A stretch of 59,489 nucleotides of DNA, taken from NCBI GenBank assembly GCA_016212185.1, contig JACRGX010000065.1, positions 1 to 59,489 on the forward strand. The letters run 5' to 3'. This document shows, one piece after another, positions 33,680-59,147 of this stretch (within the stretch, counting starts at the first letter, position 1; every line of letters begins with the position of its first letter). The position numbers and the translations under genes were made by a program. Origin of the DNA: Nitrospirota bacterium. GTDB taxonomy: Bacteria; Nitrospirota; Thermodesulfovibrionia; UBA6902; DSMQ01. Under the pieces are notes generated by a model that ran no database searches, was not told the DNA's origin, and was given only the letters and a program-made list of their open reading frames with translations.

Positions 33680-33778
33680 GTATTTCCTCCGTTTAAATTT
33701 AATTCAAGATTCATTGAAAAAGGATTCAACATCTATATCTATTACCCCCTGTGGTCTCTGCCACAGTTCCAAATTTCT

Positions 33779-33843: not shown

Positions 33844-33922
33844 ACCAAAAAATAAACATTCAAATAATAGACGCCCTGCGGTCTCTGCCGCAGGGTTCTT
33901 CACTAATTTTGCATTTATTTCA

Positions 33923-34906
33923 TTAATTCCAGATGCCCAGACCTTTAAGCAGCGCCCTTGCGCCTGCAAATAAAAGCATTATTATAACTATATAGCGGAT
34001 TGCCGCCGGCTTTGTCTTTGCAAGGATCCTGACGCCTACAATGGAGCCCAGCATTATCCCGATTATTGAGGGAACAACCATCATAGGCAGTACTGCCCCG
34101 TTATTAAAATAAATCCATGCGGCAGATGTATCTGTTATAGAGAGCAGAAACTTGCTGGTTGCCACAGAGACTTTTAAGGGCGCTCCCATCATGAGATTCA
34201 GCACCGGCACGTTGGCCCATCCTGCTCCAAGCCCGAACATACCTGCCATTACGCCTATGAGAACAAATGTTGCAAGCCCCTGAGGCGTCCTGTGTATTTT
34301 CCAGTTAATTTCCTCTCCTGTAGACACCTCGTGGTATATTCCGTTTATCCTGAGGGCTGTGGAAAGTGAATCCGCCTGCTTTACCTCGGGGTATTCTGAT
34401 TTTTTTGCCATGAGCATAATTGCAACGATTCCCAGAATAGTTGCACCCAGCGCAGTCTGAACAACATTTGTCGGCAGTGCAAGACCCAGCATGGCCCCAA
34501 CAATTGCGCATGAAGATGCAATGAGCGCCACAGGCAGGGCAAGTCTTAAATCTGCCATGCCTTTTTTAAGCAGGCCGGGTCCTGCGGCAAGCGCTCCTGA
34601 TAGGGCCACCAGAAGACCCGCCCCTCTGACAAAATCAAGGTGAAACGGGAAAAAACCTCCTATAATAGGCACAAAGAGCACGCCCCCGCCTACACCGCCT
34701 AAAACAGCTACAATCCCGAGCACAAATGTTAAAACAAATAAAGTCAGCGGCCAGACCCACCATGGAGCGGCAGAACCATTTGCCGCTGCGTCTGCTGTTT
34801 GCTCTTCGCCGTAAGCAGCTCCATTGAAACCTGAAATACAGACAGCCGCAACTGCAATAATGAAAATTACATATAAAAACTTACGGTGTATATTTAATTG
34901 CTCCAT
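33923..34906 (-). CDS. TauE/SafE-family anion permease, module A
   Basis: The 327-residue membrane protein has an N-terminal hydrophobic leader (FLYVIFIIAVAAVCISGF) and then about eight spans in two TauE halves: GVGGGVLFVPIIGGFFPFHL and GLGAGWANVPVLNLMMGAPL. The family exports or imports small organosulfonates, sulfite, sulfoacetate or other anions. ATG 34906 was chosen over 34918 because AAGGA lies at a usable distance and the upstream regulator stops at 34912. It follows three signalling genes on the same strand and is followed by a small membrane protein and acs. Confidence 0.85.
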   Translation of the reverse strand: MEQLNIHRKFLYVIFIIAVAAVCISGFNGAAYGEEQTADAAANGSAAPWWVWPLTLFVLTFVLGIVAVLGGVGGGVLFVPIIGGFFPFHLDFVRGAGLLVALSGALAAGPGLLKKGMADLRLALPVALIASSCAIVGAMLGLALPTNVVQTALGATILGIVAIMLMAKKSEYPEVKQADSLSTALRINGIYHEVSTGEEINWKIHRTPQGLATFVLIGVMAGMFGLGAGWANVPVLNLMMGAPLKVSVATSKFLLSITDTSAAWIYFNNGAVLPMMVVPSIIGIMLGSIVGVRILAKTKPAAIRYIVIIMLLFAGARALLKGLGIWN

Positions 34907-34911
34907 TATTT

Positions 34912-35352
34912 TTACCATCCTTTGCTTTCTAATATCTCCTTTACTTGTTTTTCCGCTTTTTTCTCAACGAGAAGTATTTTTTTGCTCTGTGCCTCTCCGA
35001 TTTTTTCCATGAGTTTATTTAAGTCCACAGGCTTTTCCATAAAGTCAACTGCGCCTGCCTTTATTGCCTCAACACCTTTCTCTAATGTGCCGTGCCCTGT
35101 AAGGATTACAATCTGCATATCAGGATTTTCCTGCCGCAGGCGTTTAAGGGTTTCTATGCCGCTTATCCCCGGCATCATGAGGTCCAGAACAATCGCATCA
35201 AAGTCCTTGCCCTTGGCCCGTTTAACGGCGTCTTCTCCGCTGCTTGCAGTGTCTACTTTCATGCCCCGGCCTTCAAGTCTTTTTGAAAACACATCAAGGA
35301 ACTGTTCTTCGTCATCTACTAAGAGTATGTTTGCTTTAATATCTTCAGACAT
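34912..35352 (-). CDS. Single-domain response regulator
   Basis: The 146-residue CheY-like receiver has acidic pocket LLVDDEEQF, phospho-acceptor D57 (IVLDLMMPG), T in ILTGHGT and K in MEKPVD. A short helical tail (SKKILLVEKKAEKQVKEILE) follows, with no DNA-binding domain. GGAGG precedes the ATG. It directly precedes the TauE gene and follows another receiver, so the pair probably relay phosphate from the kinases upstream. Confidence 0.92.
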   Translation of the reverse strand: MSEDIKANILLVDDEEQFLDVFSKRLEGRGMKVDTASSGEDAVKRAKGKDFDAIVLDLMMPGISGIETLKRLRQENPDMQIVILTGHGTLEKGVEAIKAGAVDFMEKPVDLNKLMEKIGEAQSKKILLVEKKAEKQVKEILESKGW

Positions 35353-35376
35353 AATATTTACCTCCGTTTTCGTCTT

Positions 35377-35829
35377 CTATTCTTCTTTTTTTATGATTTT
35401 TTTTGCAGTATCAAAAACACCTTCCTCGGCAAATGTAATTGCCGTCATGGCTCTTTCAATCTTTTCAGTGAATGCCTCTTTGATTTTGGCTACGAGAAGA
35501 TCAATGTCCGCAGGCTTCCGCAGGAAGTCAAATCCGCCGAGATTTTTTGCCTCTACGGCGTTTTTTTCCGTGCCGTGTCCTGTCAGGATAATGACCTGTA
35601 TGGCGGGTTTTATATTTTTTATTTCCCTAAGCACATCTATGCCGTGCAGTCCCGGCATTTTCAGGTCCAGGACAATCACATCAGGCTCTATTTTCTTTAT
35701 AAAAGATAAAGCCTGAGCGCCATCGTAAACCGTATCCACCACAAGCTCCCGCATTTTGAGCCGCTGTGCAAGAGTGTTTACAAAATCAACTTCGTCATCT
35801 ACGAGCAAGACTTTAATCGCCTTTTTCAT
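35377..35829 (-). CDS. Response regulator with FAEEG tail
   Basis: The 150-residue receiver has DD at 11-12, phospho-acceptor D55 (VLDLKMPG), ILTGHGT and RKPADI. The tail after the receiver reads IERAMTAITFAEEGVFDTAK and matches short segments in the 64-residue protein at 55284 and the stress-type protein at 55505. There is no output domain. It stands 46 nt below the degenerate kinase gene and 25 nt above the next receiver, in one run. Confidence 0.92.
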   Translation of the reverse strand: MKKAIKVLLVDDEVDFVNTLAQRLKMRELVVDTVYDGAQALSFIKKIEPDVIVLDLKMPGLHGIDVLREIKNIKPAIQVIILTGHGTEKNAVEAKNLGGFDFLRKPADIDLLVAKIKEAFTEKIERAMTAITFAEEGVFDTAKKIIKKEE

Positions 35830-35874
35830 CAGACCCCCCTTTCGTTTATTTTTTATTTGAGTATTTTAAAAAAT

Positions 35875-36558: not shown

Positions 36559-36577
36559 CTTATTATTCCTTATTTTC

Positions 36578-36654
36578 GTCATTCCGTCCCGACGCATCGG
36601 GAATGCGGAATCCAGAAAGTCGTTTTCCTGGATTCCCGCCTTCGCGGGAATGAC
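36578..36654. repeat. REP-like palindrome upstream of the kinase-like gene
   Basis: It runs from GTCATTCCGTCCC to CGCGGGAATGAC with inner arms (CCCGACGCATCGGG and CCCGCCTTCGCGGG). Translated, it would give the VIPAKAGIQ peptide often mis-annotated in such genomes. Confidence 0.85.
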
Positions 36655-36715
36655 ATACAAAGCAGTTATTTTATTTTGAATACCCCACCCCGAAAAATCG
36701 GGACTGCAGGGCGGT

Positions 36716-37090
36716 TCATTTTACACTGCGTTTTTTCATGGCATTGTCAATTTTTACAGTCAATTCATTTATCTCCACCGGTTTTAGAATATATTCAAAT
36801 ACCTCTGCTGTTATTTCCGGTTTCACATTGTCTGTCATCTGACCGGTCAGTATTATGACCTCAATAGCCGGGTTGAACTGTTTGACGATGCCGAGAAGTT
36901 CAAAGCCGTTCATCCCAGGTATTCTCAGGTCCAGCAATACAACGTCCAGCGGCTTGCTGCGCACAGCGGTAATAGCGTCTTCAGCGCAGTACACCGCCTT
37001 TGCTTCGTAATCGCGCAAAGTCAGCCTTTCTGCAAGGGTTGAGGCGAATTCCACCTCATCGTCAACTATAAGCACTTTGGCGCGGCTCAT
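36716..37090 (-). CDS. Single-domain response regulator
   Basis: The 124-residue receiver has DDE at 10-12, phospho-acceptor D54 (VLLDLRIPG), ILTGQMT and LKPVEI. It overlaps the upstream kinase by the ATGA of the shared stop and start, so the two are a cognate, translationally coupled pair. An in-frame ATG at 37102 is an alternative. There is no output domain, so it probably acts by protein contact. Confidence 0.9.
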   Translation of the reverse strand: MSRAKVLIVDDEVEFASTLAERLTLRDYEAKAVYCAEDAITAVRSKPLDVVLLDLRIPGMNGFELLGIVKQFNPAIEVIILTGQMTDNVKPEITAEVFEYILKPVEINELTVKIDNAMKKRSVK

Positions 37091-38553
37091 GCGGTTTTCC
37101 ATTCAGCCGGTTTCCCGTGCACCGGCAGTTCAATTGTAAAAGCTGTTCCTTGGCCCGCCTCGCTGTCAACGTAAATATTCCCACCCAAGTTATTTATAAT
37201 ACCATATGTGATAGAAAGACCAAGCCCGGTTCCTTTTTTCCTTTCCTTAGTCGTAAAAAAGGGTTCAAAGATGCGGTTTAAGTTTTCCGGCGGTATCCCG
37301 CATCCGGTATCTTTAATAGCTATTCTTACTGTGTCTTTATCTTTTAAATCTGTGGATATTGTTATAACTCCTCCTTCTTCAACAGCATCAATGGCATTTT
37401 TTATCAGATTAAGAAACACCTGCTGGAGCTGTCCACGGTCGCTCTTAACCGGAGGCATATTTTCCTGAAGATTTATTTCCAGACGTATGCTTCTGTAGAA
37501 CATCTCTTTTTCCATGAACTCTGAGGCTTCTTTAACTGTGCTATTGATATTGAAGGCCTCAAACGCAATATCAGATTTTCTTGCAAAACCGAGTATGCGG
37601 TGGGTAATTGTTTTACAGCGGTTTATGCTGTCAAGTATGGCGCTGATCAGTCCCAGGAACTTCTCTTTATTGCCGAAGTCCTCTGATATTTCAAGGATGT
37701 CCTTCATAAGGCCGGCTTTTTCATTGATTATGGCAATTGGGTTGTTTATCTCATGCGCCACTCCTGCAGAGAATTTTCCCAGTGTAGCGAGTTTTTCTGT
37801 TTCCACAAGCTGAGCCTGTTTCTCATTCAGTCTTGTTATAGCAAGTTTAAAGGCTCCCATGGTATCCCGCAATTTATCCTCCATGATGTTGACCGATGCG
37901 CTCAGAGATGCAAGCTCATCCCGGCCCCTGATTTTAATTTTTTCTGAAAAATCACCGGCTGCAATTTTCTTTGTTACCTCCTCAAGTTTTTTTATCGGCT
38001 CGGCAATACTTTTTGCAAGTCGTATATTTATAATTGCTCCAAGTACTACTACTATCAGTATGACAAATATAAGGAGACGGGAGGACAATTGCAGCCGTCT
38101 ATTTATATCGGCTCTTTCCTGCTTTGAAAAGGCATCTATAAAAGATTCTATCTGCCTTGCATCTGACCTCACGACGTCTATGGAATCCTGCTGTTTGAAG
38201 TTTTCTCCGATTCTGTTAATGTGCTGTTCGTATTCGGCTGTTGCCGCCAGTATCATTTCATAGTTGGCTTCCCCTAATTCCTTTACCATTTCGCCCTTAA
38301 TGCTGAGTATATGTTTTTTAAAAATCTCAAGATAGTTTTTGAGTTCTCCCATGCTGCTCTTGTCCTTATACAGCAGGAGATTTTTCTCGTATCTCCTTAC
38401 CTCAAGAAGGGCATTGGTTATATCATCAGCCGTCTCAACAAACTTTAGTCCCTTTGTAATTGTGCGTAATTCATTGTATGTAAAAAACCCGCCCATTACA
38501 GCGAGTAATATGTAGAAACTAACGGCAAGGTGTAGTTTGTCGCGTATTTTCAT
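37087..38553 (-). CDS. Membrane sensor histidine kinase (4HB/HBM-type sensor, HAMP)
   Basis: The 488-residue kinase has TM1 (about 8-27), a helical external sensor with LLEVRRYEKNLLLYKDKSS, TM2 (about 157-177), HAMP, and HisKA with the phospho-His in SAGVAHEINNPIAII. The full ATPase has N box LIKNAIDAVEEGG, G1 DTGCGIPPENL, F box and GTGLGLSITYGI. The sensor motif RRxEKNxxLY also occurs in the kinase at 57579, so both may sense related ligands. It is coupled to the receiver at 36716. Confidence 0.93.
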   Translation of the reverse strand: MKIRDKLHLAVSFYILLAVMGGFFTYNELRTITKGLKFVETADDITNALLEVRRYEKNLLLYKDKSSMGELKNYLEIFKKHILSIKGEMVKELGEANYEMILAATAEYEQHINRIGENFKQQDSIDVVRSDARQIESFIDAFSKQERADINRRLQLSSRLLIFVILIVVVLGAIINIRLAKSIAEPIKKLEEVTKKIAAGDFSEKIKIRGRDELASLSASVNIMEDKLRDTMGAFKLAITRLNEKQAQLVETEKLATLGKFSAGVAHEINNPIAIINEKAGLMKDILEISEDFGNKEKFLGLISAILDSINRCKTITHRILGFARKSDIAFEAFNINSTVKEASEFMEKEMFYRSIRLEINLQENMPPVKSDRGQLQQVFLNLIKNAIDAVEEGGVITISTDLKDKDTVRIAIKDTGCGIPPENLNRIFEPFFTTKERKKGTGLGLSITYGIINNLGGNIYVDSEAGQGTAFTIELPVHGKPAEWKTA

Positions 38554-38658
38554 ATCCGATAAAGTTTAATAGTTTGGGGTGTTTTTTCTCAAGTGTTAAT
38601 TAAATAGCACCATGACTCATGGTGTTGAGTTTCTTGAATTCTATGTTATTATTTCCTT

Positions 38659-38707
38659 GTCATTCCCGTGGAAGTCCCGAACAAGTCGGGGCTTCCGCAG
38701 GAATGAC
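38659..38707. repeat. Short REP-like palindrome
   Basis: It begins GTCATTCCCGTGGAAGTCCC and ends TTCCGCAGGAATGAC, with inner arms around CCCGAACAAGTCGGG. It lies between NhaD and the kinase gene. Confidence 0.8.
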
Positions 38708-38719
38708 AACTTTTTACAA

Positions 38720-40000: not shown

Positions 40001-40015
40001 AGGATTAATCCTCCG

Positions 40016-40729: not shown

Positions 40730-40742
40730 TTACTCTCTCCTC

Positions 40743-42260
40743 TTACTTTAACACCGTCGGCATTCCCAAAATCGGCCATAACGAGAGTATAAGCGCGCCG
40801 ATTATTACGACTAAGACCACACTCAGCAATATTCCGTGCTTGAAAAACTCTCCGGTTGAAAATTGTTTAGATTCATAAGCGATTGCATTCGGGGCGGCTC
40901 CGATAAGAAGCACAAAAGGCATTCCCGCTGTAGCGAGCGATGCATAGAAAATTACATCAGGCGAGACGCCGAGATATCCTGCTATAACGAGCGATACAGG
41001 GAGTGAAATGGCTATTGCCGCCACATTCATAATGAAGTTTGTCATTATAAGGACAAATGTTGCGATGCTTAGAATAAAAACAAGCCAGTGCGCATTCTGG
41101 AACATGACAAGCCAGTTAACAGCCATCCACTGCGCGGCGCCTGTTTTCCACAGGCAAAAACCAATGCTCATAGCGCCGCTGAAAAGGAGGATAATGTTCC
41201 AGGGGATTTCTTCAAGCTCTTTGACCGTGAGTATCTTAAAAATAAAGAATATGAGTGTTGATATAAGAATTAATGCCGCCCTGTCCATGGACTTTAATGC
41301 CGGCACAAAAGACTGCAGGGACATGATTATTACAACGCTGATGACGGTTATGATTACAAACTTCTCGTTTTTGGTCATGGGACCCAGCTCTTTGGAGAGT
41401 TTTTTGACCTTTTCCTTTAGGCCGGAAATGACATCCTTTTCCGGCTTTAGGAATATCATCAGATAGCCCCATATCAGAAAGACCATCAGCCATCCGAGGA
41501 AGAACATGTATTTGCTGAGCTCAAAAAAACCAATGTCCCTGCCGGTAAATTCCTTAAACATTCCCGCGCCTGCCGCCGCGCGCGCAGAGCCTAAGAATGT
41601 AATGATGCTCCCCGCGCCTGCCGCATAAGCCATGCCGATGAAAAGCGCTTTGCCGAAGTTTGTCTGTTTGTCGCCTTCGCCGTAGAGCGCATAAATAGCC
41701 AGCAGAATCGGGAAGACGGTTGCCGCCGCAGCCGTATGCGCCATGAGATGCGCAAGCCCTGCGGTTACTACAAGCGCGCCTAATAATATCATGCTGGTTT
41801 TTTCTCCTACTATTTCCAGCATTTTATACGCAAGGCGTTTTGTTAGTCCGGTTGTTGAAAATGCCAGACCCACAACAACAGAGCCGAAGATGAACATAAC
41901 GGACGGGTCCATAAAGTCCTTGAAGGCGTCTTTTGCAGAGCGGATGCTGAATAACGCCTGAAACACGCCGATTGCTATGGACGTAATACCGATCGGCAAT
42001 ACCTCAAAAACCCACCATACTCCTGCCATTGCAAACAGGGCAATGGCTCCTTTCCCCTCGTTTGATAAAGGGAATGCCTTGCCTGCGGGGTCCACGGCAT
42101 CTTTCCACGATGGCATAAAATAGATAAGAAGGAAAAGTCCCAGTCCCAGCAAGATGAAAAATACACGCTTCCATTCAAACGGGATTTTTGGAGCTGCAAT
42201 TACTATATCTTTCGGAGGCTCCGGCAATCCCCGAGTTTTTTTAATATCTTTATCTGTCAT
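40743..42260 (-). CDS. DASS/SLC13-family sodium:anion symporter
   Basis: The 505-residue protein has about twelve spans and a basic N-terminal tail. DASS marks include the VWWVFEVLPIGITSIAIGVF start, the first substrate-loop region GSARAAAGAGMF and the late GAAPNAIAYESKQF signature. Relatives carry dicarboxylates, sulfate or other anions with Na+. Next to a carbonic anhydrase and NhaD, bicarbonate is an attractive substrate, but this is inference. AAAGGAGG precedes the ATG. It lies 13 nt below the CBS gene. Confidence 0.9.
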   Translation of the reverse strand: MTDKDIKKTRGLPEPPKDIVIAAPKIPFEWKRVFFILLGLGLFLLIYFMPSWKDAVDPAGKAFPLSNEGKGAIALFAMAGVWWVFEVLPIGITSIAIGVFQALFSIRSAKDAFKDFMDPSVMFIFGSVVVGLAFSTTGLTKRLAYKMLEIVGEKTSMILLGALVVTAGLAHLMAHTAAAATVFPILLAIYALYGEGDKQTNFGKALFIGMAYAAGAGSIITFLGSARAAAGAGMFKEFTGRDIGFFELSKYMFFLGWLMVFLIWGYLMIFLKPEKDVISGLKEKVKKLSKELGPMTKNEKFVIITVISVVIIMSLQSFVPALKSMDRAALILISTLIFFIFKILTVKELEEIPWNIILLFSGAMSIGFCLWKTGAAQWMAVNWLVMFQNAHWLVFILSIATFVLIMTNFIMNVAAIAISLPVSLVIAGYLGVSPDVIFYASLATAGMPFVLLIGAAPNAIAYESKQFSTGEFFKHGILLSVVLVVIIGALILSLWPILGMPTVLK

Positions 42261-42273
42261 TATATTGCCTCCT

Positions 42274-42795
42274 TTATCCCTTTAAAATAATGTTGGAAAT
42301 TTCATCAAATATCTCTATCAGTCTGACCACGCCGACAAGCTTCTTTTTGTTTTCCAGAACGGGCAGTAAAACCAAATCATTATGAAGCATAAGATACGCC
42401 GCTTTGGTAATGGGATCGCCGGGCTCAACAAAGACCTTAGCGGGAACCATGACTTCGCTTATCGGTTTTTCAGACAGTTCTCTGGACTTTTCATCAAAAA
42501 ATGTATCCCATAAAAGAGACAACCCTGCCTCATTCTCCGCCGGAACCTGCGCCTTTGCGGTAGGCTTCAGGAATTTCGGCTCAAGCCCTTTCAGAATATC
42601 CTTAAGACTCAAGGTGCCCACGAGGTTATACTTTTCGTCAAAGACCAGTATTGCCAGAGGCCGGATACATTTCTCATCAACAAGCAATGACTTTTTGGTA
42701 ACCCCCATAGCTTGTTTTATTGAAAACCAGTAGGGGATATGAGGAAACTCAAAAACGTCCATCATCAAATCCTGTACAACTTTACTTTGTGACAT
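42274..42795 (-). CDS. CBS-domain protein of the transporter cluster
   Basis: The 173-residue soluble protein has two CBS-like halves. Residues 1-80 contain VVQDLMMDVFEFPHIPYWFS and VGTLSLKDILKG. Residues 100-170 contain ISEVMVPAKVFVEPGDPITKAAYLMLHNDLVLLPV and VGVVRLIEIFDEI. Such proteins gate transporters or sense adenine nucleotides. AGGAGG precedes the ATG. It lies between the GntR gene and the DASS transporter, so a regulatory role for that transporter is likely. Confidence 0.85.
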   Translation of the reverse strand: MSQSKVVQDLMMDVFEFPHIPYWFSIKQAMGVTKKSLLVDEKCIRPLAILVFDEKYNLVGTLSLKDILKGLEPKFLKPTAKAQVPAENEAGLSLLWDTFFDEKSRELSEKPISEVMVPAKVFVEPGDPITKAAYLMLHNDLVLLPVLENKKKLVGVVRLIEIFDEISNIILKG

Positions 42796-43703: not shown

Positions 43704-46343
43704 ATGCTTAATTTCTTAAAGCCATTCAAAAAGACTGGTGAAAGCCCGCCGGATGCTTTTAAGGAAGCCATTAAAAGCAAGTACAATATATTTCAGTCTC
43801 TTCTGACAAAGAACAATAATGTGCTTGAGCTTATGGCTGATATGGAGGAAAAACTCTCCGGTGAATACCTCTTTGACAGGCAGTATATAAATTCCAATGC
43901 GCGCTTAATTGCTGACGGAGTTTTAACAATCATTAAAAACCTTAATGCCCTCTCCGGTGATAAATACAAGCAGTTTTACGGACTATATAATGAGATTAAT
44001 AAAGAAATAGACAAAACCTTGGCGCACAAATCAGATGTTCCGGTTAGCGATTTAACCGTTCCCTTTGAAAATCTCACAGCCGGGATGTCGGATATTGCCG
44101 GCGGTAAAACAGCGCATTTGGGCGAAATAAAAAACCGTCTTAAGCTTTTGACCCCGGATGGTTTTACAATCAGCGCCTATGCATTTAAAAAATTTATGGA
44201 ACACAACAGGCTTACGGAAAAGATAAATGAAAGACTGTCTTTATTGAACATAAACAACATGGAAGAACTGAATAAGGCAGGCCAAGAGATACAGGAAATG
44301 ATAATAAGCGCAGAGGTTCCTGAGGAGTTACGGACGGCTATCAATAAAGCGGTTGAAAGTTTGAAGTTGAAATTGGAAGATTTGTCATTCCGGCTTGTCC
44401 GGAATCTTTCCGAAAAAGGATTGCCGACAAGCGGCAATGACAGCAACAAACAACAATCATTAATGGTCTCCGTCAGAAGCAGTGCAATTCAGGAGGACGG
44501 AGAGTTCAGTTTTGCAGGGCAGTATTCTACTTTTCTCAATGTGCCTGAGCGCCGGATCCTGCAGAAATACAAAGAGGTTCTGGCAAGTTTATTCACCCAG
44601 CGTGCTATTTTTTACTATAAGACAAAAGGCTTTGCTGAAGAAGAAATGGTTATGGCGGTCGGTGTATTACAGATGGTAAATTCAAGGGCAGGCGGGGTCG
44701 CATATACGATGGACCCGAATGACCCTGTGAATGACGCGGTCATAATTAATGCTGTACACGGGCTCGGGAAGACCGTTGTTGACGGAATGGTAAATCCTGA
44801 TTCTTACATGGTCTCAAAAAAGACAGGCGCCATTTTAGAAAAGAGGATTGCTGAACAGCAGATAATGCTTGTATGCAATCCTGATGGAGACATTAAAGAG
44901 GTTGATATCCCTGATGAGGTTAAGGGCAAACCGTGTCTTACTGATGAACAGATAAAGACATTATACGGGTATGCCGTGATTCTTAAAGACCATTATGCGA
45001 AACCTCAGGACATAGAATGGGCCCTTGACATGGACGGCAGGCTGTACATCCTGCAGAGCAGACCGCTGAGAATCCTGAAGGCGGAAGGTGAAGGATTAAA
45101 AGTTCCGAGAAGGATAGAAGGGCGCAACAGCCTGATTGATAAAGGGATCATTGCGTGCAAAGGCATCGGCGCGGGTAAGGCATTTGTGCTTAAGGGCGAA
45201 GAAGACCTGAAAGATTTTCCAGAGGGCGCTGTGCTTGTGGCAAGGCATACATCCACAAAATTCGTAACTGTCATGAATAAGGCGTCTGCCATTGTTACGG
45301 ATATCGGGGGAGCGACAGGACACATGGCGTCTATTTCAAGGGAATATCAGGTTCCGACAATCCTTGATACCGGAACAGCGACAACTGTTATTAAGAATGG
45401 ACAGGAGATAACAGTGGATGCCGTAAACTGCAATATCTATGAGGGAAAGGTTAATGAACTTATTGCGTACGCATTAAAAAAGAAAGAGCCTTTTAAAGAC
45501 ACGCATCTGTTTAAGGTTTTGGAAAAAACATTAAAATGGATAGTTCCTTTAAATCTGGTTGATCCCGAAGATGAGAACTTTAAGCCTGAATATTGTAAGA
45601 CATTTCATGATATAACACGGTTTGCCCATGAAACGGCAATGGCTGAGATGTTTCTGATAGGCGAGGGGCCTGATGCCGGGAAGTCCCATACGATTATACT
45701 AAAGGCAGGGATTCCTATTGACGCTCATATGATAGACATTGACGGCGGCATTAAAGCCGATATAAAAAAGGCAACTCATGAAGATATACTCTCAATTCCA
45801 TTTTCCGCATTACTTAAGGGGATGAGATGTATGAGATGGCCTGAGCCGAGGGCTGCCGATGCAAAGGGTTTTTTAGGCATGATTGCGCATACGGCATCTA
45901 TCCCTGAAGATGATATTTATAAAACTGCCGAGAAAAGCTTTGCAATAGTATCCGGCCATTACATGAATTTCAGCATAAGACTCGGCTACCATTTCTCAAT
46001 GGTAGAGGCATATGCCGGAGAGAATATGAATGACAATTACATTAAATTCTTTTTTAAGGGCGGGGGAGCCGCCGTAGACAGGAGATTAAGAAGGGTCAGG
46101 CTCATTACGGAAATCCTTAAAAAACTGGACTTCAAAGTCAATGCCGCGCAGGATGTGATAGATGCAATTCTTACCAAGTACAGGCAGGAGACTATAGAAG
46201 AAAAATTAGAGATAATGGGCAAACTGACAGCTTATACCAAACAACTGGACATGGTTATGTATAACGACGCCATTACAGACTGGTATATAGAGGAATTCGT
46301 TAAAGAACACATTAAAGAACAGCCAATAGGCAATAGGGAATAG
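43704..46343 (+). CDS. PEP-synthase-like protein with unusual C-terminal domain
   Basis: The 879-residue protein has a helical N-terminus (1-110) and a PEP/pyruvate-binding ATP-grasp domain (about 125-465) with GGKTAHLGEIKN, VSVRSSAIQEDGEFSFAGQ and LYILQSRPLR. The swivelling phosphohistidine domain carries H540 in GGATGHMASISRE. The C-terminal 280 residues do not look like the usual PEP-binding barrel; they include TRFAHETAMAEMFLIGEG, KGMRCMRWPEPR and SGHYMNFSIRLGYHFS. It may phosphorylate a different acceptor. Residues 227-247 are a REP-coded insert, and the last residues (PIGNRE) and stop come from an intergenic repeat. GAGG lies 11 nt before the ATG. Divergent from gntR. Confidence 0.82.
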   Translation: MLNFLKPFKKTGESPPDAFKEAIKSKYNIFQSLLTKNNNVLELMADMEEKLSGEYLFDRQYINSNARLIADGVLTIIKNLNALSGDKYKQFYGLYNEINKEIDKTLAHKSDVPVSDLTVPFENLTAGMSDIAGGKTAHLGEIKNRLKLLTPDGFTISAYAFKKFMEHNRLTEKINERLSLLNINNMEELNKAGQEIQEMIISAEVPEELRTAINKAVESLKLKLEDLSFRLVRNLSEKGLPTSGNDSNKQQSLMVSVRSSAIQEDGEFSFAGQYSTFLNVPERRILQKYKEVLASLFTQRAIFYYKTKGFAEEEMVMAVGVLQMVNSRAGGVAYTMDPNDPVNDAVIINAVHGLGKTVVDGMVNPDSYMVSKKTGAILEKRIAEQQIMLVCNPDGDIKEVDIPDEVKGKPCLTDEQIKTLYGYAVILKDHYAKPQDIEWALDMDGRLYILQSRPLRILKAEGEGLKVPRRIEGRNSLIDKGIIACKGIGAGKAFVLKGEEDLKDFPEGAVLVARHTSTKFVTVMNKASAIVTDIGGATGHMASISREYQVPTILDTGTATTVIKNGQEITVDAVNCNIYEGKVNELIAYALKKKEPFKDTHLFKVLEKTLKWIVPLNLVDPEDENFKPEYCKTFHDITRFAHETAMAEMFLIGEGPDAGKSHTIILKAGIPIDAHMIDIDGGIKADIKKATHEDILSIPFSALLKGMRCMRWPEPRAADAKGFLGMIAHTASIPEDDIYKTAEKSFAIVSGHYMNFSIRLGYHFSMVEAYAGENMNDNYIKFFFKGGGAAVDRRLRRVRLITEILKKLDFKVNAAQDVIDAILTKYRQETIEEKLEIMGKLTAYTKQLDMVMYNDAITDWYIEEFVKEHIKEQPIGNRE
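44384..44441. repeat. REP-like element translated inside the PEP-synthase-like gene
   Basis: GTCATTCCGGCTTGTCCGG, then AATCTTTCC, ending GCGGCAATGAC, is the same family as 33779-33843 and 52051-52126. It codes residues 227-247 just before the conserved VSVRSS motif, with no frame break. Confidence 0.85.
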
Positions 46344-46406: not shown

Positions 46407-46745
46407 TCAAAGAAAAGAATTGAGCATTTTGTTTATCTCTTGGGTTTTTTGTAGTATTATTTCCAATGCCTGGCTGTTTAGATATTGCAGATTTTTTGAT
46501 ACTATAAGATGAGTTTCCAATTCTAATAAAGAACCTCTGGCAATTCTCAGAAACTGAATATACTCTTTTGTCATATTCCGTCCCCATCCTTCAGCTATAT
46601 TTGCTGGAATTGAAATTGCTGCTCGTCGAATCTGGTTTGTCAAAGCATAGATTTCTTCATTAGGAAATGTTTTTGTTATTTTGTAAATCTCCGTTACAAG
46701 TTCTATAGCCTTCTTCCACACTTCCAGTTCCTGATATGATTCCAT
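46407..46745 (-). CDS. Four-helix-bundle protein (S23 / 23S rRNA intervening-sequence family)
   Basis: This 112-residue protein contains SYQELEVWKKAIELVTEIYKITKTFP, a central RRAAISIPANIAEGWGR and YIQFLRIARGSLLELETHL, the S23-family pattern. The family was found in 23S rRNA intervening sequences but is mostly free-standing; it may bind nucleic acid. Function here is unknown. It sits between two stretches of CAATAGGGAATAG repeats and lies in a gap between the PEP-synthase-like gene and a two-component system, as if carried in by the repeats. Confidence 0.88.
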   Translation of the reverse strand: MESYQELEVWKKAIELVTEIYKITKTFPNEEIYALTNQIRRAAISIPANIAEGWGRNMTKEYIQFLRIARGSLLELETHLIVSKNLQYLNSQALEIILQKTQEINKMLNSFL

Positions 46746-50040: not shown

Positions 50041-50769
50041 TTACACTTCTTTTTTAACCTTTGATTTCTTCATCGTAAGCCCTATGCCTTCAAATATGAA
50101 GAATATTGCAAACCCCCACCACATGGTATATACCACATAAAATACCAGAAGACCTGTCATAAGGACTGCATTCTCAGAGACTTTCTGGGCTGTTATCCCG
50201 TAAAAGTTGTAGGATGTTTCTACGGCTTTTTTGTTTACGCTGTCAAGAAGTTTTGCCTCGTCAAGTTTCTTATCTTTTGTGAAGGTCTTTGCCATCTTGC
50301 TCAGCGCCTGCCACCAGTTTTTCATCACAGCCTTTTCGGCATACCCGTACAGCCCCGATACCTTGGAACCGTCATTATTGTACATTGCATCCGAATCGTT
50401 AAGAACGGTCTCTACCACCTTGCCGAGGTCGCCTTCTATCTTCATTTCAGTTCCCTGCATTTCCGCACGGGCGCCGGCAGAGTTAAACAGCTTGATTGTA
50501 TTTTCAGCGTCTTCAGGTTTGTCTATCTTTATACTGACTGCAAATGTCTTACCGATAAATTTCTCATTATCCTTTTTTATCTTTGGAATGAAATAAGAGG
50601 ACCCCTTGGAGAGTTCGTTAAACATTCTGTCGGCAAAGTCCAGTCCGTTCTGGGAGTTACCCTCCGGAGTCTTCGGGAAAATGGGCGAAAAAATCAAGAC
50701 TAATACTACAATAAACGATATGGCAAGGACTATTCCCGTTCCAAGATGTTTTTTATGCGCTTCAGCCAT
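50041..50769 (-). CDS. Two-span membrane protein of TauE module B
   Basis: The 242-residue protein has TM1 (11-32) and TM2 (about 203-228), enclosing a 165-residue external domain with FADRMFNELSKGSSYFIPKI, FAVSIKIDKPEDAENTIKLF and DSDAMYNNDGSKVSGLYGYAEK. A basic tail follows. I do not recognise the family. It directly follows the TauE gene with a 1-nt gap and precedes a USP, so it is likely an accessory or sensor part of that transporter. Confidence 0.8.
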   Translation of the reverse strand: MAEAHKKHLGTGIVLAISFIVVLVLIFSPIFPKTPEGNSQNGLDFADRMFNELSKGSSYFIPKIKKDNEKFIGKTFAVSIKIDKPEDAENTIKLFNSAGARAEMQGTEMKIEGDLGKVVETVLNDSDAMYNNDGSKVSGLYGYAEKAVMKNWWQALSKMAKTFTKDKKLDEAKLLDSVNKKAVETSYNFYGITAQKVSENAVLMTGLLVFYVVYTMWWGFAIFFIFEGIGLTMKKSKVKKEV

Positions 50770-53063: not shown

Positions 53064-53918
53064 TTATGGTTTGACTACAAGCACAGGGCAGGGAGCGTGC
53101 CCTATAACTTTTTCTGTAACGCTTCCCATGAGGAGTCTCTTTAATCCTGTCCGCCCGTGTGAGCCGAGGATTATTGTGTCAACTTTTTGTTTTTTTGCAA
53201 GGGCGGTAATTGCCTCGTATGCCACGTCTTCACGAACAAAAATCGCTGTTTTTATGCCGGATGCCTCAGCCAGTTTGCGGGCCTCCTCCACATATCCTTT
53301 TGCTTTCCTGATTAAGTCATCTGCAACCTCAGGGGCCTCAGCATAAAATTCTGCGGGGACGTCTATAACAGACAGGATATTCAGTTCCCCGCCGTATGAT
53401 TTAGCGAAGTCAATTGCTTTTTCAATTGCAGCCCTGCTGTATTTTGAGCCGTCAGTGGCAACAAGGATGTTCTGCCAGCCCACAAAGGTGTCTCTCGGAA
53501 TAACAAGGATGTCATTGCGGGTGTAGCCGATTACTCTTGCGGTTACGCTTCCCATAAGCGCTCTTTCAAGCCGGCGCAGTCCGCGCCTTCCCATTATTAT
53601 CAGGTCGCAGTTGTTAGTTTCTGCAAGGTTAACAATCTTTTCATATGGCTCGCCTTCCTCACAGACTGTTTTTATCAAAGCTTTTTCAGTCCTTGCCGCC
53701 TCTTCAGCCTTTGAAAGGGCATCTTCGCATGGTTTTCTTATGGATGCCATGACATCTCTAACCCCGGTTAAATCAAGGTCTCCGGTGTAAGGCGGAACAA
53801 CAGACACGACAGTTATCCAGCTTCCTTCATTCACAGCAAGCTTGAAGGATTCTTTCAGCGCATGGATGCTTGTTTCAGAGCCGTCAACGGCAACAAGCAG
53901 TTTTCTGTATCTCCCCAA
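53064..53918 (-). CDS. Tandem universal stress protein
   Basis: The 284-residue protein has two UspA domains. The first ends with the ATP motif G-RR-G-LRRLERALM-GS and the second with G-SH-G-RTGLKRLLM-GS, both intact; each half starts with a VAVDGSE or VATDGSK segment. It starts with TTG at 53918, 2 nt after the TauE stop, with AAGGTG close by, so it is coupled to module C TauE. It may bind ATP and regulate the permease or respond to the same stress. Confidence 0.93.
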   Translation of the reverse strand: MGRYRKLLVAVDGSETSIHALKESFKLAVNEGSWITVVSVVPPYTGDLDLTGVRDVMASIRKPCEDALSKAEEAARTEKALIKTVCEEGEPYEKIVNLAETNNCDLIIMGRRGLRRLERALMGSVTARVIGYTRNDILVIPRDTFVGWQNILVATDGSKYSRAAIEKAIDFAKSYGGELNILSVIDVPAEFYAEAPEVADDLIRKAKGYVEEARKLAEASGIKTAIFVREDVAYEAITALAKKQKVDTIILGSHGRTGLKRLLMGSVTEKVIGHAPCPVLVVKP

Positions 53919-53919
53919 A

Positions 53920-55011
53920 CTACACCTTTCCGTGCTCTAAAGCCGCTCCTGCATGCTGAAGCCTCTCAACCCTGCGTCCCTGCCACATGGCTTTAAGGAC
54001 TATAAAGGCGCCGAGTACAAGGGCGAAAATCATTATACCAAAACTTACATTTTTTAATGTCTTTGTTAAAGCATCGCTAAGTGTTTGTATCAGGCCAAGC
54101 TGGGACAGATAAACAGGGACCATAAGGGCGCGGCTGAAAAGGACGATAACCATGATTAATCCCATTACTACCTTTATCATATGAGGTTTAACATAGGTTG
54201 TGCCTATTGCGCCAAGCTGAATGCCGAATAAAGAACCGGCAAGGATAATCATGGCGAGGCGTATGTCAACCAGTCCGTGCATTGCGTATTTTAATGAACC
54301 GCCTAATCCCATGACAAACGCAATTACAAGTTCTGTGGCTGAAGCCATCAGGCTGGGCGCCCCGAGAACATAAATCATTGAAGGGACACCGATAAAACCG
54401 CCTACTGCAATGGTTGCTGCAAGCATTCCGGTTGCAAAACCGAGTGGAATCGTGAAGAGCACTGAAACCTTTGCATTCAGACTCTTAAAGTAAACCATTG
54501 TACCCGGAATATTTATGGATTGCACCCGGCGCGCAAGTTTTGTGAGTTTTTCTTCTTCATTGGTGTTTCCAGATTTGTAAGTTTTCCATGCATCCAGTAA
54601 TACAAAACTGCCCACAATTGCAAGAATTACTACAAATGCCGCGCTGACATAGAGGTTGGACCCTGCATCGCCGAAATTTTTCTTTATATTTTCCTGTATC
54701 TGCGCGCCGTAAAGGACGCCTGCTTCTGCAGATATTCCAAGTACGATGCCGAGTTTTACATCAACCTGCCCGTATTTTGCGCGTTTAAGCGCACCGATGA
54801 GGGCCTTGGGAAATTTGTGGCACATATTGCTTGCGACTGCCACGAGTCCGGGCACTCCAAGGCTCATCATGGCGGGTGTAAGCACAAATGCGCCGCCTGA
54901 GCCGATAAATCCGCTTACAAGACCTCCGACAAATCCTACAATAAACAGGTAGGCAACAGTCATTACATCAAGATTGATGAAATTAGCTGCCTCCTTGACC
55001 ATATCATGCAT
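53920..55011 (-). CDS. TauE/SafE-family anion permease, module C
   Basis: This 363-residue, eight-to-nine-span protein has the TauE halves GFIGSGGAFVLTPAMMSLGV and AVGGFIGVPSMIYVLGAPSL, with a cytoplasmic loop (YKSGNTNEEEKLTKLARRVQ). It starts 2 nt after the small membrane gene and is followed by the tandem USP. An internal ATG at 55002 is possible. It is closer in length and loop plan to module B than to module A. Confidence 0.88.
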   Translation of the reverse strand: MHDMVKEAANFINLDVMTVAYLFIVGFVGGLVSGFIGSGGAFVLTPAMMSLGVPGLVAVASNMCHKFPKALIGALKRAKYGQVDVKLGIVLGISAEAGVLYGAQIQENIKKNFGDAGSNLYVSAAFVVILAIVGSFVLLDAWKTYKSGNTNEEEKLTKLARRVQSINIPGTMVYFKSLNAKVSVLFTIPLGFATGMLAATIAVGGFIGVPSMIYVLGAPSLMASATELVIAFVMGLGGSLKYAMHGLVDIRLAMIILAGSLFGIQLGAIGTTYVKPHMIKVVMGLIMVIVLFSRALMVPVYLSQLGLIQTLSDALTKTLKNVSFGIMIFALVLGAFIVLKAMWQGRRVERLQHAGAALEHGKV

Positions 55012-55012
55012 G

Positions 55013-55258
55013 TTACTTTACCTCCCTTTTCTTTTTTGCAGCCTCTACCCCAAGCACAGTCCAGAAATGTCCTGTAAATGAACCGTGGACAAACGAAAAG
55101 GCAAATGCCGTAGCTACCAGCAAAAACGCATATGCGCCTCCGTGACCAAAGTAGTTGTTAAGAAAATCCTGATTTAAAAGAAGCGCTGCATACATTCCGA
55201 CTGAAATAATTCCCATGAGTGTCATTCCCGCATAGGGCTTTTTCTTTTTCTCTGACAT
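55013..55258 (-). CDS. Two-span small membrane protein of TauE module C
   Basis: The 81-residue protein has a basic N-tail (SEKKKKPYAG), spans at about 11-30 and 40-60, a Phe/His-rich second span (FSFVHGSFTGHFWTVLGVEA) and a Lys-rich tail. The function is not known. GGAGGAG fixes ATG 55258; the longer in-frame start at 55279 lacks a site. It is packed against TauE module C. Confidence 0.75.
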   Translation of the reverse strand: MSEKKKKPYAGMTLMGIISVGMYAALLLNQDFLNNYFGHGGAYAFLLVATAFAFSFVHGSFTGHFWTVLGVEAAKKKREVK

Positions 55259-55283
55259 CTCTCCTCCATCTTTCTTCATAGAA

Positions 55284-55478
55284 TTAATTGCTTCCTACGG
55301 CTGAATTGACTGCAATCTTTGATACATATTCACCACTGGATTTTTTGCTGATTTTTTTGTGAGGGGGCTCTTCTTCCTGCATAAACTGCTTTGCCGTTTC
55401 AAATTCCCCGGCTTCGGCAAAGGTAACGGCAAACATTGCATTCTCAAATTTTTTGAATATGCTTTTGAGTGTTTTCAT
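55284..55478 (-). CDS. Small FAEAG-motif protein
   Basis: The 64-residue protein reads MKTLKSIFKKFENAMFAVTF, then AEAGEFETAKQFMQEEE and a Lys/Ser-rich tail. No family is recognised. Residues 14-30 match the tail of the receiver at 35377 and an internal segment of the stress-type protein just upstream. AAGGAGG precedes the ATG. It looks like a free-standing copy of an interaction motif and lies between the USP-like gene and the small membrane gene in one run. Confidence 0.75.
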   Translation of the reverse strand: MKTLKSIFKKFENAMFAVTFAEAGEFETAKQFMQEEEPPHKKISKKSSGEYVSKIAVNSAVGSN

Positions 55479-55504
55479 TTCGCTTCCTCCTTTTTAACCT
55501 GTAC

Positions 55505-55990
55505 CTATGCCTCTGCCTTTGCAGGCGCTGACATGGCTACGACAGGTTTTGTTATGTTTTTGAGTAATTTTTTAAAGTCAACCCCTTTTTTATCGTCTGA
55601 AAGATTCGGGCTTAAAAGGACCATATCAATGAACGGCCTATTTTTAAGAAAATCCTTAATTGCCGTTATCGTGTCATTAAATGCTGTCCGGTAAATGAGC
55701 GATATGGAATTCTTCCCGCATGTTTCAACAAATTTTTTAATCTTGATTTCTGCAGCTTCTTTAATTTTTTCTTCCTGCTCATGCAGGAGCCATTTAACAG
55801 TCTCCGTATCTCCTGCCTCTGCAAATGCAACCGCAGCCATTGTGTCTTCAAGGGTGATCAATGCCTGTTTGCCGTAAACCATTAATACCGCAATCCCGGC
55901 ATTAAGAGTTTTGGCAAGCTCTACCGCATAAGAAAATCCGTTATCGCAGTCTTCACCTCCCTTTGTTACAAATAAGATTTTTTCTTGCAT
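55505..55990 (-). CDS. USP-like protein with inserted FAEAG motif
   Basis: The 161-residue protein has a UspA-like order: ILFVTKGGEDCDNGFSYAVE, a strand AGIAVLMVYG, and late IDMVLLSPNL and PVVAMSA. It lacks the G2xG9xGS ATP motif. Residues 47-75 (TLEDTMAAVAFAEAGDTETV) hold the FAEAG motif, followed by a charged helix. It is first in the run 55990 to 53064. GGAGGG precedes the ATG, and a candidate sigma-54 promoter lies about 40 nt upstream. Confidence 0.8.
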   Translation of the reverse strand: MQEKILFVTKGGEDCDNGFSYAVELAKTLNAGIAVLMVYGKQALITLEDTMAAVAFAEAGDTETVKWLLHEQEEKIKEAAEIKIKKFVETCGKNSISLIYRTAFNDTITAIKDFLKNRPFIDMVLLSPNLSDDKKGVDFKKLLKNITKPVVAMSAPAKAEA

Positions 55991-56027
55991 GTATTCCCTC
56001 CTTAAATTGAACTTCTACATAGGTAAT

Positions 56028-56044
56028 AGAAAGAAGCATGCCAG
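56028..56044 (-). promoter_or_regulatory. Candidate sigma-54 promoter of TauE module C
   Basis: On the minus strand CTGGCATG-N4-TTTCT has the -24 GG and a near-miss -12 (TC for GC). It starts the run that follows the sigma-54 activator gene. The other candidate, at 24837-24852, also begins CTGGCATG. Confidence 0.3.
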
Positions 56045-56253
56045 CTCATAACTTATTGGAATTAAATGGAAAGCTATTTTTTGACGCTTAAATTATTGTT
56101 TCAAATATGAACGCAGGTGAACGGTTTTATCACTAACATCATGAAAGGAGTTATAGATTTAATTACCTTGCAGACTTTTTGTTGAGGAGGAATTTTTACG
56201 AAAAAAACTTTACGTTGAAGGAAGATAATGGAATCTAATGCTTCGGAATGTTA

Positions 56254-57582
56254 TTACTTTTTAAGTATCCGCCAGAGGCTTGTCCTTGAGATGCCCAGAA
56301 GGTCAGCCGCTTTTGCTCTGTTGTTCTCCACAAACTCAAGCACTTTTTCTGCATATTCTTTATTTATCTCGTCAATTGTTTTTATTTTTTTAGGGGTGAT
56401 TGTTTCAACCTGAAATAACTTTATGCTCTGGGGAAGGCTCTCAGGCATTATACGGGAGGTTTTCTCCAGAATAAGGGCCCGCTCAATAATATTTTCAAGC
56501 TCCCTGACATTGCCCGGAAAATTATATGCCATGAGCATATCTATCGCTTCTTTGCCGAAACCGCTTATCTTTTTATTTACCTTTTTAGAATGTTTTTCTA
56601 AAAAATGATTGCTGAGCGGGACAATATCTTCCCTTCTTTCCCGTAGCGGAGGTATATGAATATCCATGACATTGAGCCTGTAAAATAAATCCTCTCTGAA
56701 CTTTCCGTCGGATACGAGCGTATTGATATTCTGATTTGTTGCGGCAATGAACCTTACGTCAACCTTGATTTGCCTTGTGCCGCCTACGCGCAGGAATTCT
56801 TTATCCTCAATTACCTTAAGCAGTTTTGCCTGCAGGGCTGTTGACATCTCCGCTATCTCATCAAGAAATAATGTGCCGGTGTTTGCAATTTCAATAAGTC
56901 CCTGTTTAGTGGCGACGGCGCCGGTGAAGGCCCCTTTTTCATGTCCGAAAAGTTCGCTTGCAAGAAGTTCTTCCGTAAAGATTGCGCAATTTACCGCCAA
57001 AAAAGGTTTTTCTTTGCGGGGACCTGTGTAGTGGATGAGCTTTGCTATAAGCCCTTTGCCTGTGCCGCTCTCTCCGGTCAGCAAGACATTGCAGTCAGAA
57101 TTTGTTATGCTGTTTACAATCTCTACCACCCTTTTTATCACCCTGCTTTTTGCTATGAAAGGGTAATCCCTGCCTATCCCCAGAGAAACTTTAAGGGCTA
57201 TGTTTTCTTTTTGTAAGGTTTTTTTTTCCTGAATTTTTTTGATTTTAAGGCTCAGCTCATCCAGATTAAAGGGCTTGGTGATGTAGTCAAATGCGCCTTT
57301 TTTCATTGCCTCAACCGCAGATTCAATACTGCCAAAACCTGTGATTATTATTACATCAGTGGCGGGATAGTTGTCTTTTACCTTGCCGAGAAGCGTTATG
57401 CCGTCCATGCCGGGCATTTTTATGTCGGCAATGAGAATGTCAAACTCCTCTTTCTCAAGTTTATTGAAGGCTTCAATGCCGTTTTTTACGCCTGTTACGG
57501 CATAGCCCTCTTTTTCCAGAGCATACTTAAGGTGTTTTAGTGTTATCTCTTCGTCTTCTGCAATCAGGATATTAAGGTTCAT
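56254..57582 (-). CDS. NtrC-family sigma-54-dependent response regulator
   Basis: The 442-residue activator has a receiver with D53 (IADIKMPG) and an AAA+ domain with Walker A GESGTGKG (170-177). The sigma-54 contact loop GAFTGA lies near 234, followed by the ATPase sensor segments and a Fis-type helix-turn-helix at the end (ENNRAKAADLLGISRTSLWR). It overlaps the kinase upstream by ATGA, so they are a coupled pair. The next genes downstream form TauE module C, its likely target. Confidence 0.95.
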   Translation of the reverse strand: MNLNILIAEDEEITLKHLKYALEKEGYAVTGVKNGIEAFNKLEKEEFDILIADIKMPGMDGITLLGKVKDNYPATDVIIITGFGSIESAVEAMKKGAFDYITKPFNLDELSLKIKKIQEKKTLQKENIALKVSLGIGRDYPFIAKSRVIKRVVEIVNSITNSDCNVLLTGESGTGKGLIAKLIHYTGPRKEKPFLAVNCAIFTEELLASELFGHEKGAFTGAVATKQGLIEIANTGTLFLDEIAEMSTALQAKLLKVIEDKEFLRVGGTRQIKVDVRFIAATNQNINTLVSDGKFREDLFYRLNVMDIHIPPLRERREDIVPLSNHFLEKHSKKVNKKISGFGKEAIDMLMAYNFPGNVRELENIIERALILEKTSRIMPESLPQSIKLFQVETITPKKIKTIDEINKEYAEKVLEFVENNRAKAADLLGISRTSLWRILKK

Positions 57583-59147
57583 TGTTCTTTCGGCAGTATT
57601 ATAGTGAAAGTAGTTTTCTTGTCAGGTTCGCTCACGACATCTATTTTACCATTATGCTTTTTTATTATGTTGTAAGCAATCGCCAGTCCTAACCCTGTGC
57701 CTTTTTCCTTTGTGGTAAAAAACGGGTCAAAAATTCTTGATATATCTTTCGGCTGGATGCCCCTGCCTGTGTCAGTGATTTTAATTTGTACGCCGGTGTT
57801 GACGGCATCCATTCTGATATCCAGCAAGCCCTTGCCTTCCATCGCATCAACGGCATTGATGAAAAGATTTATAAAGACCTGCTCCATGAGATGCCTGTCT
57901 GCAGGGAGTTCAATGTTTTCAGGGGCAGCAAGATTGTACTGTACATCTGACATCTCGCCCGACGTCTGCATTTGATTAAGCACGTCATGGACCAGATGGA
58001 CTATGTTGATTTTTTTGAGTTCAGGGCCTTTTTCCCTGGCAAACTCAAGGAGGTCGCTGACTATCCTTTTCACCCGGAGCGTTTGCGAAGCAATGTCCCT
58101 GACGCTTTCAGTGATTACTTCAGGGCAGGCTTCCGACTCTATTACCTGGTCTATTTCTTTTGATAATATCTGAGACGCAAGGTAAATATTATTAAGCGGG
58201 TTGTTAAGTTCATGGGCCACCCCGGATGCAAGCGTTCCTATGGATGCCAGTTTCCTGCTTTGGAGCAGTTCCTCATTTTTTCTGTTAAGCTCCTCATCCC
58301 GTGCAATCAGATCTGCCTTCATTTTGTTAAAGGTCTTAATCAGCAAGCCTATCTCGTCCTGTTTTTCCGGAATTTTCAGAGATGAGAAGTGCCCTTTGCC
58401 TGTCTCTTCAATTGCATCGGAAAGAATTTTCAGGCGCTTCACAGTGCTCTGACTTATCCCGAACAACGCCCACAACCCCACAAAAATAAACATCGGGAAA
58501 AGGATTAATGCCGTGGTCTGCGATACGACCATTGCTTTGTCTACCTTTTCTCTTGCCGACTTATCCATGTCATTAGATATGGTCAGTATTTCTTCCCCGT
58601 CTTTTCTTATGGCGGTCATCTCGGTATTCAATTCCTGAAGGTTTTTAATTATTGAATCCTCTTCACGCAGTAAAAAGGTCTTTTTTAAAAGTTCTGCGGT
58701 TATGATAGGGCGTTCAAAAAATGTAGATTCAATCAGTTCAAAAAAAACAGAATACCGGGAATTTAAAGGTTTAAGCTTTGCTAATCTATCCCGAACTTCA
58801 TAGAAGATGGCTTCAATATGGTTAAACTTCTGCTCATATTCGTCAATTTTTTTCTCAAGTACGAGCAGGTAGTTGTTTTTATAAGCGCTTTTGCCCTGAT
58901 TAAGAAGAAGCTTTATATCATTTAAATAAGTATGAACTTTTTCAACAGCGCTGACGTCCATGTAAAGGAAAAAGTTCTTTTCATGACGTCTGAGCTGCAG
59001 GGATTTGCTTCTGAGGTTGTCGGATAGTTCAAGGTAATGTATCTCTTTTCTGATTTCAATGAAGCTGACAAAGCCAAAGATCATAATGACGACAATAATT
59101 ATTGAGCTTGTGAGAAAGCCGAGGATTATCTTTTTCTTCAAAGACAT
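57579..59147 (-). CDS. Membrane sensor histidine kinase paired with the sigma-54 activator
   Basis: The 522-residue kinase has TM1 (about 8-28) and a helical external sensor with LQLRRHEKNFFLYMDVSAVE, the same RRxEKNxxLY motif as the kinase at 37087. TM2 (about 210-232), HAMP and HisKA with LASGVAHELNNPLNNIYLA follow. The complete ATPase has NLFINAVDAMEGKG, DTGRGIQPKDI and GTGLGLAIAYNI. It is coupled to the NtrC-type regulator. The ligand is unknown; 4HB/HBM sensors often bind organic acids. Confidence 0.94.
   Translation of the reverse strand: MSLKKKIILGFLTSSIIIVVIMIFGFVSFIEIRKEIHYLELSDNLRSKSLQLRRHEKNFFLYMDVSAVEKVHTYLNDIKLLLNQGKSAYKNNYLLVLEKKIDEYEQKFNHIEAIFYEVRDRLAKLKPLNSRYSVFFELIESTFFERPIITAELLKKTFLLREEDSIIKNLQELNTEMTAIRKDGEEILTISNDMDKSAREKVDKAMVVSQTTALILFPMFIFVGLWALFGISQSTVKRLKILSDAIEETGKGHFSSLKIPEKQDEIGLLIKTFNKMKADLIARDEELNRKNEELLQSRKLASIGTLASGVAHELNNPLNNIYLASQILSKEIDQVIESEACPEVITESVRDIASQTLRVKRIVSDLLEFAREKGPELKKINIVHLVHDVLNQMQTSGEMSDVQYNLAAPENIELPADRHLMEQVFINLFINAVDAMEGKGLLDIRMDAVNTGVQIKITDTGRGIQPKDISRIFDPFFTTKEKGTGLGLAIAYNIIKKHNGKIDVVSEPDKKTTFTIILPKEQ

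Follow-up and report, generated by a model that had tools for sequence, protein, structure and literature searches.

Three otherwise unrelated proteins, a 64-residue protein, a USP-like protein and a stand-alone phospho-receiver, share a short segment built around FAE(A/E)G. All are encoded in the 59,489-nucleotide stretch of Nitrospirota DNA analyzed here (contig JACRGX010000065.1), referred to as the window. A sequence-only reading suggested that the segment is a portable docking motif not described as a domain and always near TauE genes, or else a lone TPR-like helix pair. The question raised by the locus is what this segment is and what it may do for such different hosts. Sulfate reducers commonly have stand-alone receivers, odd USPs and orphan TauE permeases, for most of which no output is known; a shared docking module, if true, would link all three in one physical, testable assembly.

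The module and its distribution

The pattern was found in the proteins starting at 55284, 55505 and 35377, all on the minus strand. An initial AM had been ascribed to all three, but the USP copy reads T-M. Alignment of the three segments (alignment A1) gave 9 invariant columns among 29 (E5, M8, A10, F13, A14, E15, G17, T21 and K23), and the pattern was absent from every other ORF of the window, all of which were checked. The copies and their profile matches are:

55371..55457 (-), module copy 1, FKKFENAMFAVTFAEAGEFETAKQFMQEE, within the free-standing 64-aa protein; 1.7e-16
55775..55861 (-), module copy 2, between beta2 and alpha2 of the USP-like protein; 4.8e-18
35383..35469 (-), module copy 3, C-terminal tail of the receiver; 3.4e-16

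All three match, at E 3e-16 or lower, a profile that these same copies were used to build. A whole-genome search with this three-copy profile gave exactly four sites in the 2.33-Mb genome, a result not due to chance. The fourth copy (C9:29817, E 2e-9) lies in another USP-like protein, with a TauE gene directly after it and an NtrC-type regulator before it. An iterated profile retrieved 334 copies in 293 ORFs of loci from related genomes, or 236 distinct host ORFs once duplicates were removed; as decoys for the refined profile, reversed ORFs gave 0 matches and shuffled ORFs 0 at E<=0.01. The 25-residue module has the consensus FEDxMSAVTFAEAGEFETAREIMK, and the conservation in the 25-position profile is 1.00 for A12,.98 for F11 and E13,.97 for A8,.92 for G15 and A20,.85 for E16 and.82 for T19.

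The module was present in 49 of 61 genomes, counting that of the window and 60 relatives. Nitrospirota (Thermodesulfovibrionia) and Desulfobacterota (Desulfobulbaceae, Desulfobacterales) accounted for most occurrences in a named scan of genome contigs; Latescibacterota, Ignavibacteriaceae and Melioribacteraceae gave single cases. As context only, since ancestry confounds the comparison, dsrA was found in 42 of 47 module-positive and 22 of 101 module-negative Nitrospirota genomes.

No family in Pfam or NCBIfam matched the module regions of the window hosts, no PDB chain matched the module profile and the sequence FAEAGE was not found in papers. PADLOC matches (defence systems) were confined to the receiver domain, and a plasmid search with the USP host gave no match. 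The module is thus real, specific and, as had been supposed, undescribed in the libraries and papers searched, and it is now a defined family with a usable profile. The type of fold is not new, and part of one host system had been described before.

Host proteins and gene cassettes

The suggestion of portability was borne out by at least seven host architectures: 1) free-standing proteins of 56-100 aa, the commonest single class (66), 2) proteins with two or three copies in tandem, 3) receivers with the module as a C-terminal tail, as in the window (35377), 4) degenerate USPs with the module between beta2 and alpha2 (window 55505, L002), 5) another type of USP with the module in front (L012, L073), 6) a small membrane protein of Desulfobulbaceae preceded by a fused module and 7) a PEP-synthase-like protein of ~900 aa with the module in its N-terminal part. 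The same USP fold has therefore received the module at different places, in front and inside. In the PEP-synthase-like host the module is a clean insertion of ~26 residues plus a linker in one of two neighboring paralogues; in the alignment, the inserted stretch is exactly missing from the neighboring paralogue and from the window's 43704-46343 protein. In Nitrospirota, the module protein and the small membrane protein are separate neighboring genes (window 55013-55279). The module was carried by 87 of 191 USPs, 32 of 200 receivers, 14 of 63 small membrane proteins and 5 of 20 PEP-synthase-like proteins, and never by TauE (0/116), kinase (0/138), NtrC (0/104), DASS (0/20), CBS (0/16) or Alph_Pro_TM (0/21) proteins. 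Adjacent PEP-synthase-like paralogues of ~870 and ~900 aa were seen at L045:5066-10441, L047, L087 and L094; these pairs have an uncharacterized C-terminal part, and only one paralogue per pair has the module.

Two copies in the window belong to one operon, with regulatory genes upstream (cassette A, 53-59 kb):

53064..53918 (-), double-domain USP, last gene of the cassette (PF00582, 224 bits)
53920..55011 (-), TauE/TSUP permease (PF01925, 127 bits)
55013..55279 (-), small membrane protein, 88 aa, with a Desulfobulbaceae homologue fused to the module
55284..55478 (-), free-standing module protein, 64 aa; ORF with an AAGGAGG ribosome-binding site and a basic, probably unstructured tail
55505..55990 (-), degenerate USP-like protein with module, 161 aa (Pfam Usp 20.3 bits, cut-off 24)
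56029..56043 (-), candidate sigma-54 site TGGCATGCTTCTTTC, degenerate, 39 bases upstream of the 55505-55990 start codon
56254..57582 (-), NtrC-type response regulator (profile labels NtrC and RR)
57579..59147 (-), histidine kinase (HATPase_c and HisKA)

The intergenic gaps in the operon at ~55 kb are 26, 4 and 1 bases. Because the gaps are short and the ribosome-binding site is good, the 64-aa ORF was taken to be a real gene of the operon; its homologues (56-100 aa) occur in many genomes. The 55505 host has a USP fold, its best Foldseek match being a USP (E 8e-6, prob 1.0). By eye, in an alignment of 26 relatives, its family lacks the motif G-2x-G-9x-G(S/T), which defines only the ATP-binding USP subgroup. 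Nearby, window 50041-50769 (-) encodes a 242-aa protein without a Pfam match, flanked by TauE and USP; its place is taken by Alph_Pro_TM (PF09608) in relatives, and its family also occurs between TauE and a PEP-synthase-like protein (L093, L105, L127, L130).

The third copy lies in the receiver cassette (33923-42795), listed here with the PEP-synthase-like gene beyond it:

33923..34918 (-), TauE/TSUP permease (PF01925, 126.7 bits)
34912..35352 (-), second receiver, without module (Response_reg 113.6 bits)
35377..35829 (-), stand-alone phospho-receiver with module tail, 150 aa (Response_reg 101.7 bits, cut-off 30.2)
37087..38553 (-), histidine kinase (HATPase_c, HAMP, HisKA)
40743..42795 (-), Na_sulph_symp (DASS) symporter and CBS-domain protein (Pfam)
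43704..46343 (+), PEP-synthase-like protein without module (PPDK_N 323.8 bits), homologues of which elsewhere have the module insertion

The 35377 receiver retains the phospho-acceptor residues (VDDE, DLKMPG, TGH and KP). A 23S rRNA intervening-sequence-type protein (PF05635; window 46407-46745, -) lies between PEP-synthase-like and receiver genes. An acetyl-CoA synthetase, a citrate-type transporter, an LCIB-type carbonic anhydrase, the DASS symporter and the CBS protein occur together at window 31233-42795 (-), neighbors that hint at a substrate such as carboxylate or bicarbonate instead of sulfur anions.

Four layouts recur among the islands. Cassette A, exemplified by window 53064-59147, comprises a module protein, a USP with module, a small membrane protein, TauE and a USP, flanked by kinase and NtrC. 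Kinase, NtrC, a USP with inserted module, TauE, Alph_Pro_TM and USPs make up cassette B (L049, L051, L054). Cassette C (window 33923-42795, L117, L135) has a kinase, a receiver, a short kinase-like protein, a receiver with module, a receiver, CBS and DASS, with TauE optional; the symporter and CBS-domain protein are recurrent partners of such receiver-type cassettes. Cassette D (L045, L087) contains a PEP-synthase-like pair and a receiver, Alph_Pro_TM and TauE.

In 12 near-complete genomes, TauE was within 5 kb of 43 of the 45 module copies, where ~2% would be expected per copy, although P values for this association are inexact because the copies are related by descent. On the level of islands, 18 of 19 had TauE within 10 kb; conversely, 31 of the 72 TauE genes in these genomes were near a module. 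The description "always near TauE" slightly overstates the association: some receiver versions have a DASS-type symporter beside them instead.

Sigma-54 promoters and the D. vulgaris system

Sigma-54 sites with <=1 mismatch were present at 29 of 99 operon starts; shuffled sequences predict 0.16, and the reverse strand of the 99 starts had none. The site TGGCATGCTTCTTTC has two mismatches, and the sigma-54 pattern is not above chance in the window alone; relatives have strong sites at the matching place.

The main cassette resembles, by gene content, the stress and anion-transport system DVU3298-3305 of D. vulgaris. PMC3333781 and PMC4641369 describe an NtrC regulator (DVU3305), a kinase (DVU3304) and a receiver-Lon (DVU3303), beside which lies a sigma-54 operon with membrane and UspA proteins. 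According to the same papers, expression of these genes rises under stress, for example at high pH, on heat shock and in stationary phase, and DVU3305 has orthologues in Thermodesulfovibrio yellowstonii. DVU3299 is described in PMC10102598 as a putative anion transporter, important under chlorate stress, whose loss hurts growth under chlorate; through this resemblance the module family may connect to a genetic phenotype. The set of kinase, NtrC, receiver-Lon and an operon encoding a USP, a small membrane protein and a TSUP permease is complete in relatives (L039, L056 and L077 show the same genes), and the window has all except receiver-Lon, which most islands also lack. Another difference is that the parts consulted of the three descriptions (PMC3333781, PMC4641369, PMC10102598) mention no shared motif.

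The protease raises a rival idea: the receiver-Lon fusion might recognize the module as a degradation tag or as an adaptor site. A receiver-AAA-Lon protein adjoins 17 of the 102 islands from retrieved loci, as DVU3303 does in D. vulgaris (PMC3333781), and DVU3303-like fusions were seen beside module operons at L039:7391-9415, L056:11494-13503 and L077:5389-7428. However, the window's genome assembly and 9 more of 17 module genomes have housekeeping Lon only, and the module is often internal or joined to a membrane protein. Since most tested module genomes, the window's included, are without receiver-Lon, this explanation is very unlikely.

Relation to TPR and a possible docking role

Residue by residue, the module corresponds to TPR positions 2-26, and it has the TPR signature at A8 (.97), F11 (.98), G15 (.92), A20 (.92) and L/M24. 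AlphaFold predicted two hairpins for a tandem protein (helices 4-25/29-37 and 42-69/73-108), with an overall pLDDT of 77, a pTM of 0.46 and a pLDDT of ~95 for the second hairpin, from an input of 14 sequences. For the window USP, a USP fold was predicted (pLDDT 81 overall, 55-75 in the module region), the module forming helices 49-58 and 62-93 between strands 32-38 and 98-103. TeaD was among its fold matches in the structure libraries. Sequence register and model fit a lone TPR-like hairpin, so that the second suggestion of the sequence-only reading was largely right, although TPR matches stayed below the cut-off wherever one was given. The segment could be a docking motif and a TPR-like helix pair at once.

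If the module were an ordinary TPR repeat, a short piece left over from TPR arrays and engaged in generic helix packing with no special role, it would share this register (TPR positions 8, 11, 15, 17, 20 and 24), and tandem hosts gave weak TPR_4, TPR_6, TPR_12 and TPR_14 matches, the best at 5e-6. The Pfam gathering cut-off was, however, unreached in every tandem-host match tabulated with its cut-off, and the window's solo, USP and receiver hosts matched no Pfam TPR family. A designed TPR was ranked first by Foldseek for the tandem model, but at E 0.6, and the structure libraries held no significant relative. Profile comparison of the module with the TPR consensus gave a probability of 2.4%, and none of the 74 TPR_16 matches in the genome fell at the four module sites or was matched by the module profile. 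Nor does the module form a stacked array of 34-residue units: mostly one copy of ~25 residues is present, and tandem copies, three at most, are ~35-53 residues apart. In ordinary TPRs, the most variable positions are 2, 5, 9, 12, 13, 33 and 34, which form the concave surface that contacts the ligand (PMC1261162), whereas A12, E13 and T19 are fixed in the module. Together with the strong genomic association with TauE, these observations make an ordinary TPR unlikely. The outcome named in the sequence-only reading as refuting a docking motif, an ordinary TPR or random helices lacking any genomic association, was thus not obtained. The fixation of positions 12 and 13, variable elsewhere, suggests from sequence that the modules may have one common partner.

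Modules of different hosts were no more alike inside one island than between islands (0.546 vs 0.543; 68/300 permutations). Island-specific matched pairs were accordingly rejected, and there is no island-specific pairing code. The module sequence tracks host type more than island (0.597 vs 0.546), a trend easier to reconcile with a common partner or general self-association than with island-specific pairs. A purely homotypic module, joining only its own host into dimers or four-helix bundles, would agree with this trend and with the tandem and triple copies, but the occurrence of free-standing copies next to module-bearing USPs suggests that different proteins are partners, and we regard a purely homotypic module as unlikely.

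The conserved hairpin could instead serve ligand sensing or host folding. In the former case, the fixed acidic and small residues would bind a metabolite or ion, each host reading it separately. The invariant E13, the conserved E16 and T19 and the co-location with anion permeases are compatible with such a sensor, while a 25-residue hairpin offers little pocket and the most frequent host class, the free-standing proteins, has no output domain; it is quite unlikely.

The explanation we consider fairly probable is that the module is a portable hairpin for docking, one that brings USPs, receivers and a membrane anchor together around anion permeases. It would consist of two helices in TPR register, ~25 residues in all and self-contained, and would mark the soluble signaling parts (degenerate USPs, phospho-receivers and the PEP-synthase-like protein) and, as membrane anchor, the small membrane protein. 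The genes of the marked proteins would lie in anion-permease islands (TauE/TSUP, sometimes DASS) under sigma-54/NtrC control. In favor of docking are the number and variety of hosts, the uptake of the module at different places in USPs, its clean insertion in one PEP-synthase-like paralogue, the fusion to the membrane protein, the fixed positions 12 and 13, the predicted hairpins, the proximity to TauE and the sigma-54 sites; the missing pairing code and the moderate confidence of the tandem model count against it. Through one fixed face (A12, E13, F11 and T19), the hairpins may bind one another or a common partner at the permease, so that docking would relay receiver phosphorylation and USP state to the transporter, and free-standing and tandem copies may act as linkers or competitors. 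More generally, it is possible, on balance doubtful, that the module is a plug by which receivers, USPs and the PEP-synthase-like enzyme dock on TauE/DASS-type permeases in sulfur-metabolizing bacteria, phosphorelay and energy state gating anion flux post-translationally.

Tom20 and the MIT domain bind partner peptides. Together with ribosomal protein S20, they contain lone TPR-like hairpins in non-repetitive proteins (PMC5074805). The module is likewise a single helical hairpin similar to a TPR unit, but those hairpins belong to one protein family each, whereas the module has its own fixed signature and is common to unrelated hosts of one neighborhood. The encapsulation peptides of bacterial microcompartments are also short helical tags found in unrelated proteins of one locus; the module differs in being a hairpin that is also free-standing and tandem, and no microcompartment shell genes were recognized among the annotated neighbors of module genes. 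In TeaD-TeaABC, the USP TeaD itself acts on the transporter. Rv2623-Rv1747 is another USP coupled to a transporter (PMC5549992). In both pairs a USP is tied to a transporter, but there the USP itself acts, whereas the USPs of the present islands carry a separate hairpin module in addition.

Finally, the tandem-module proteins of receiver-type islands were seen to have a common C-terminal element resembling DFL..GLKGVR.TYG (L127:7989-8288, L130:2165-2464, L093, L085, L117 and L147).
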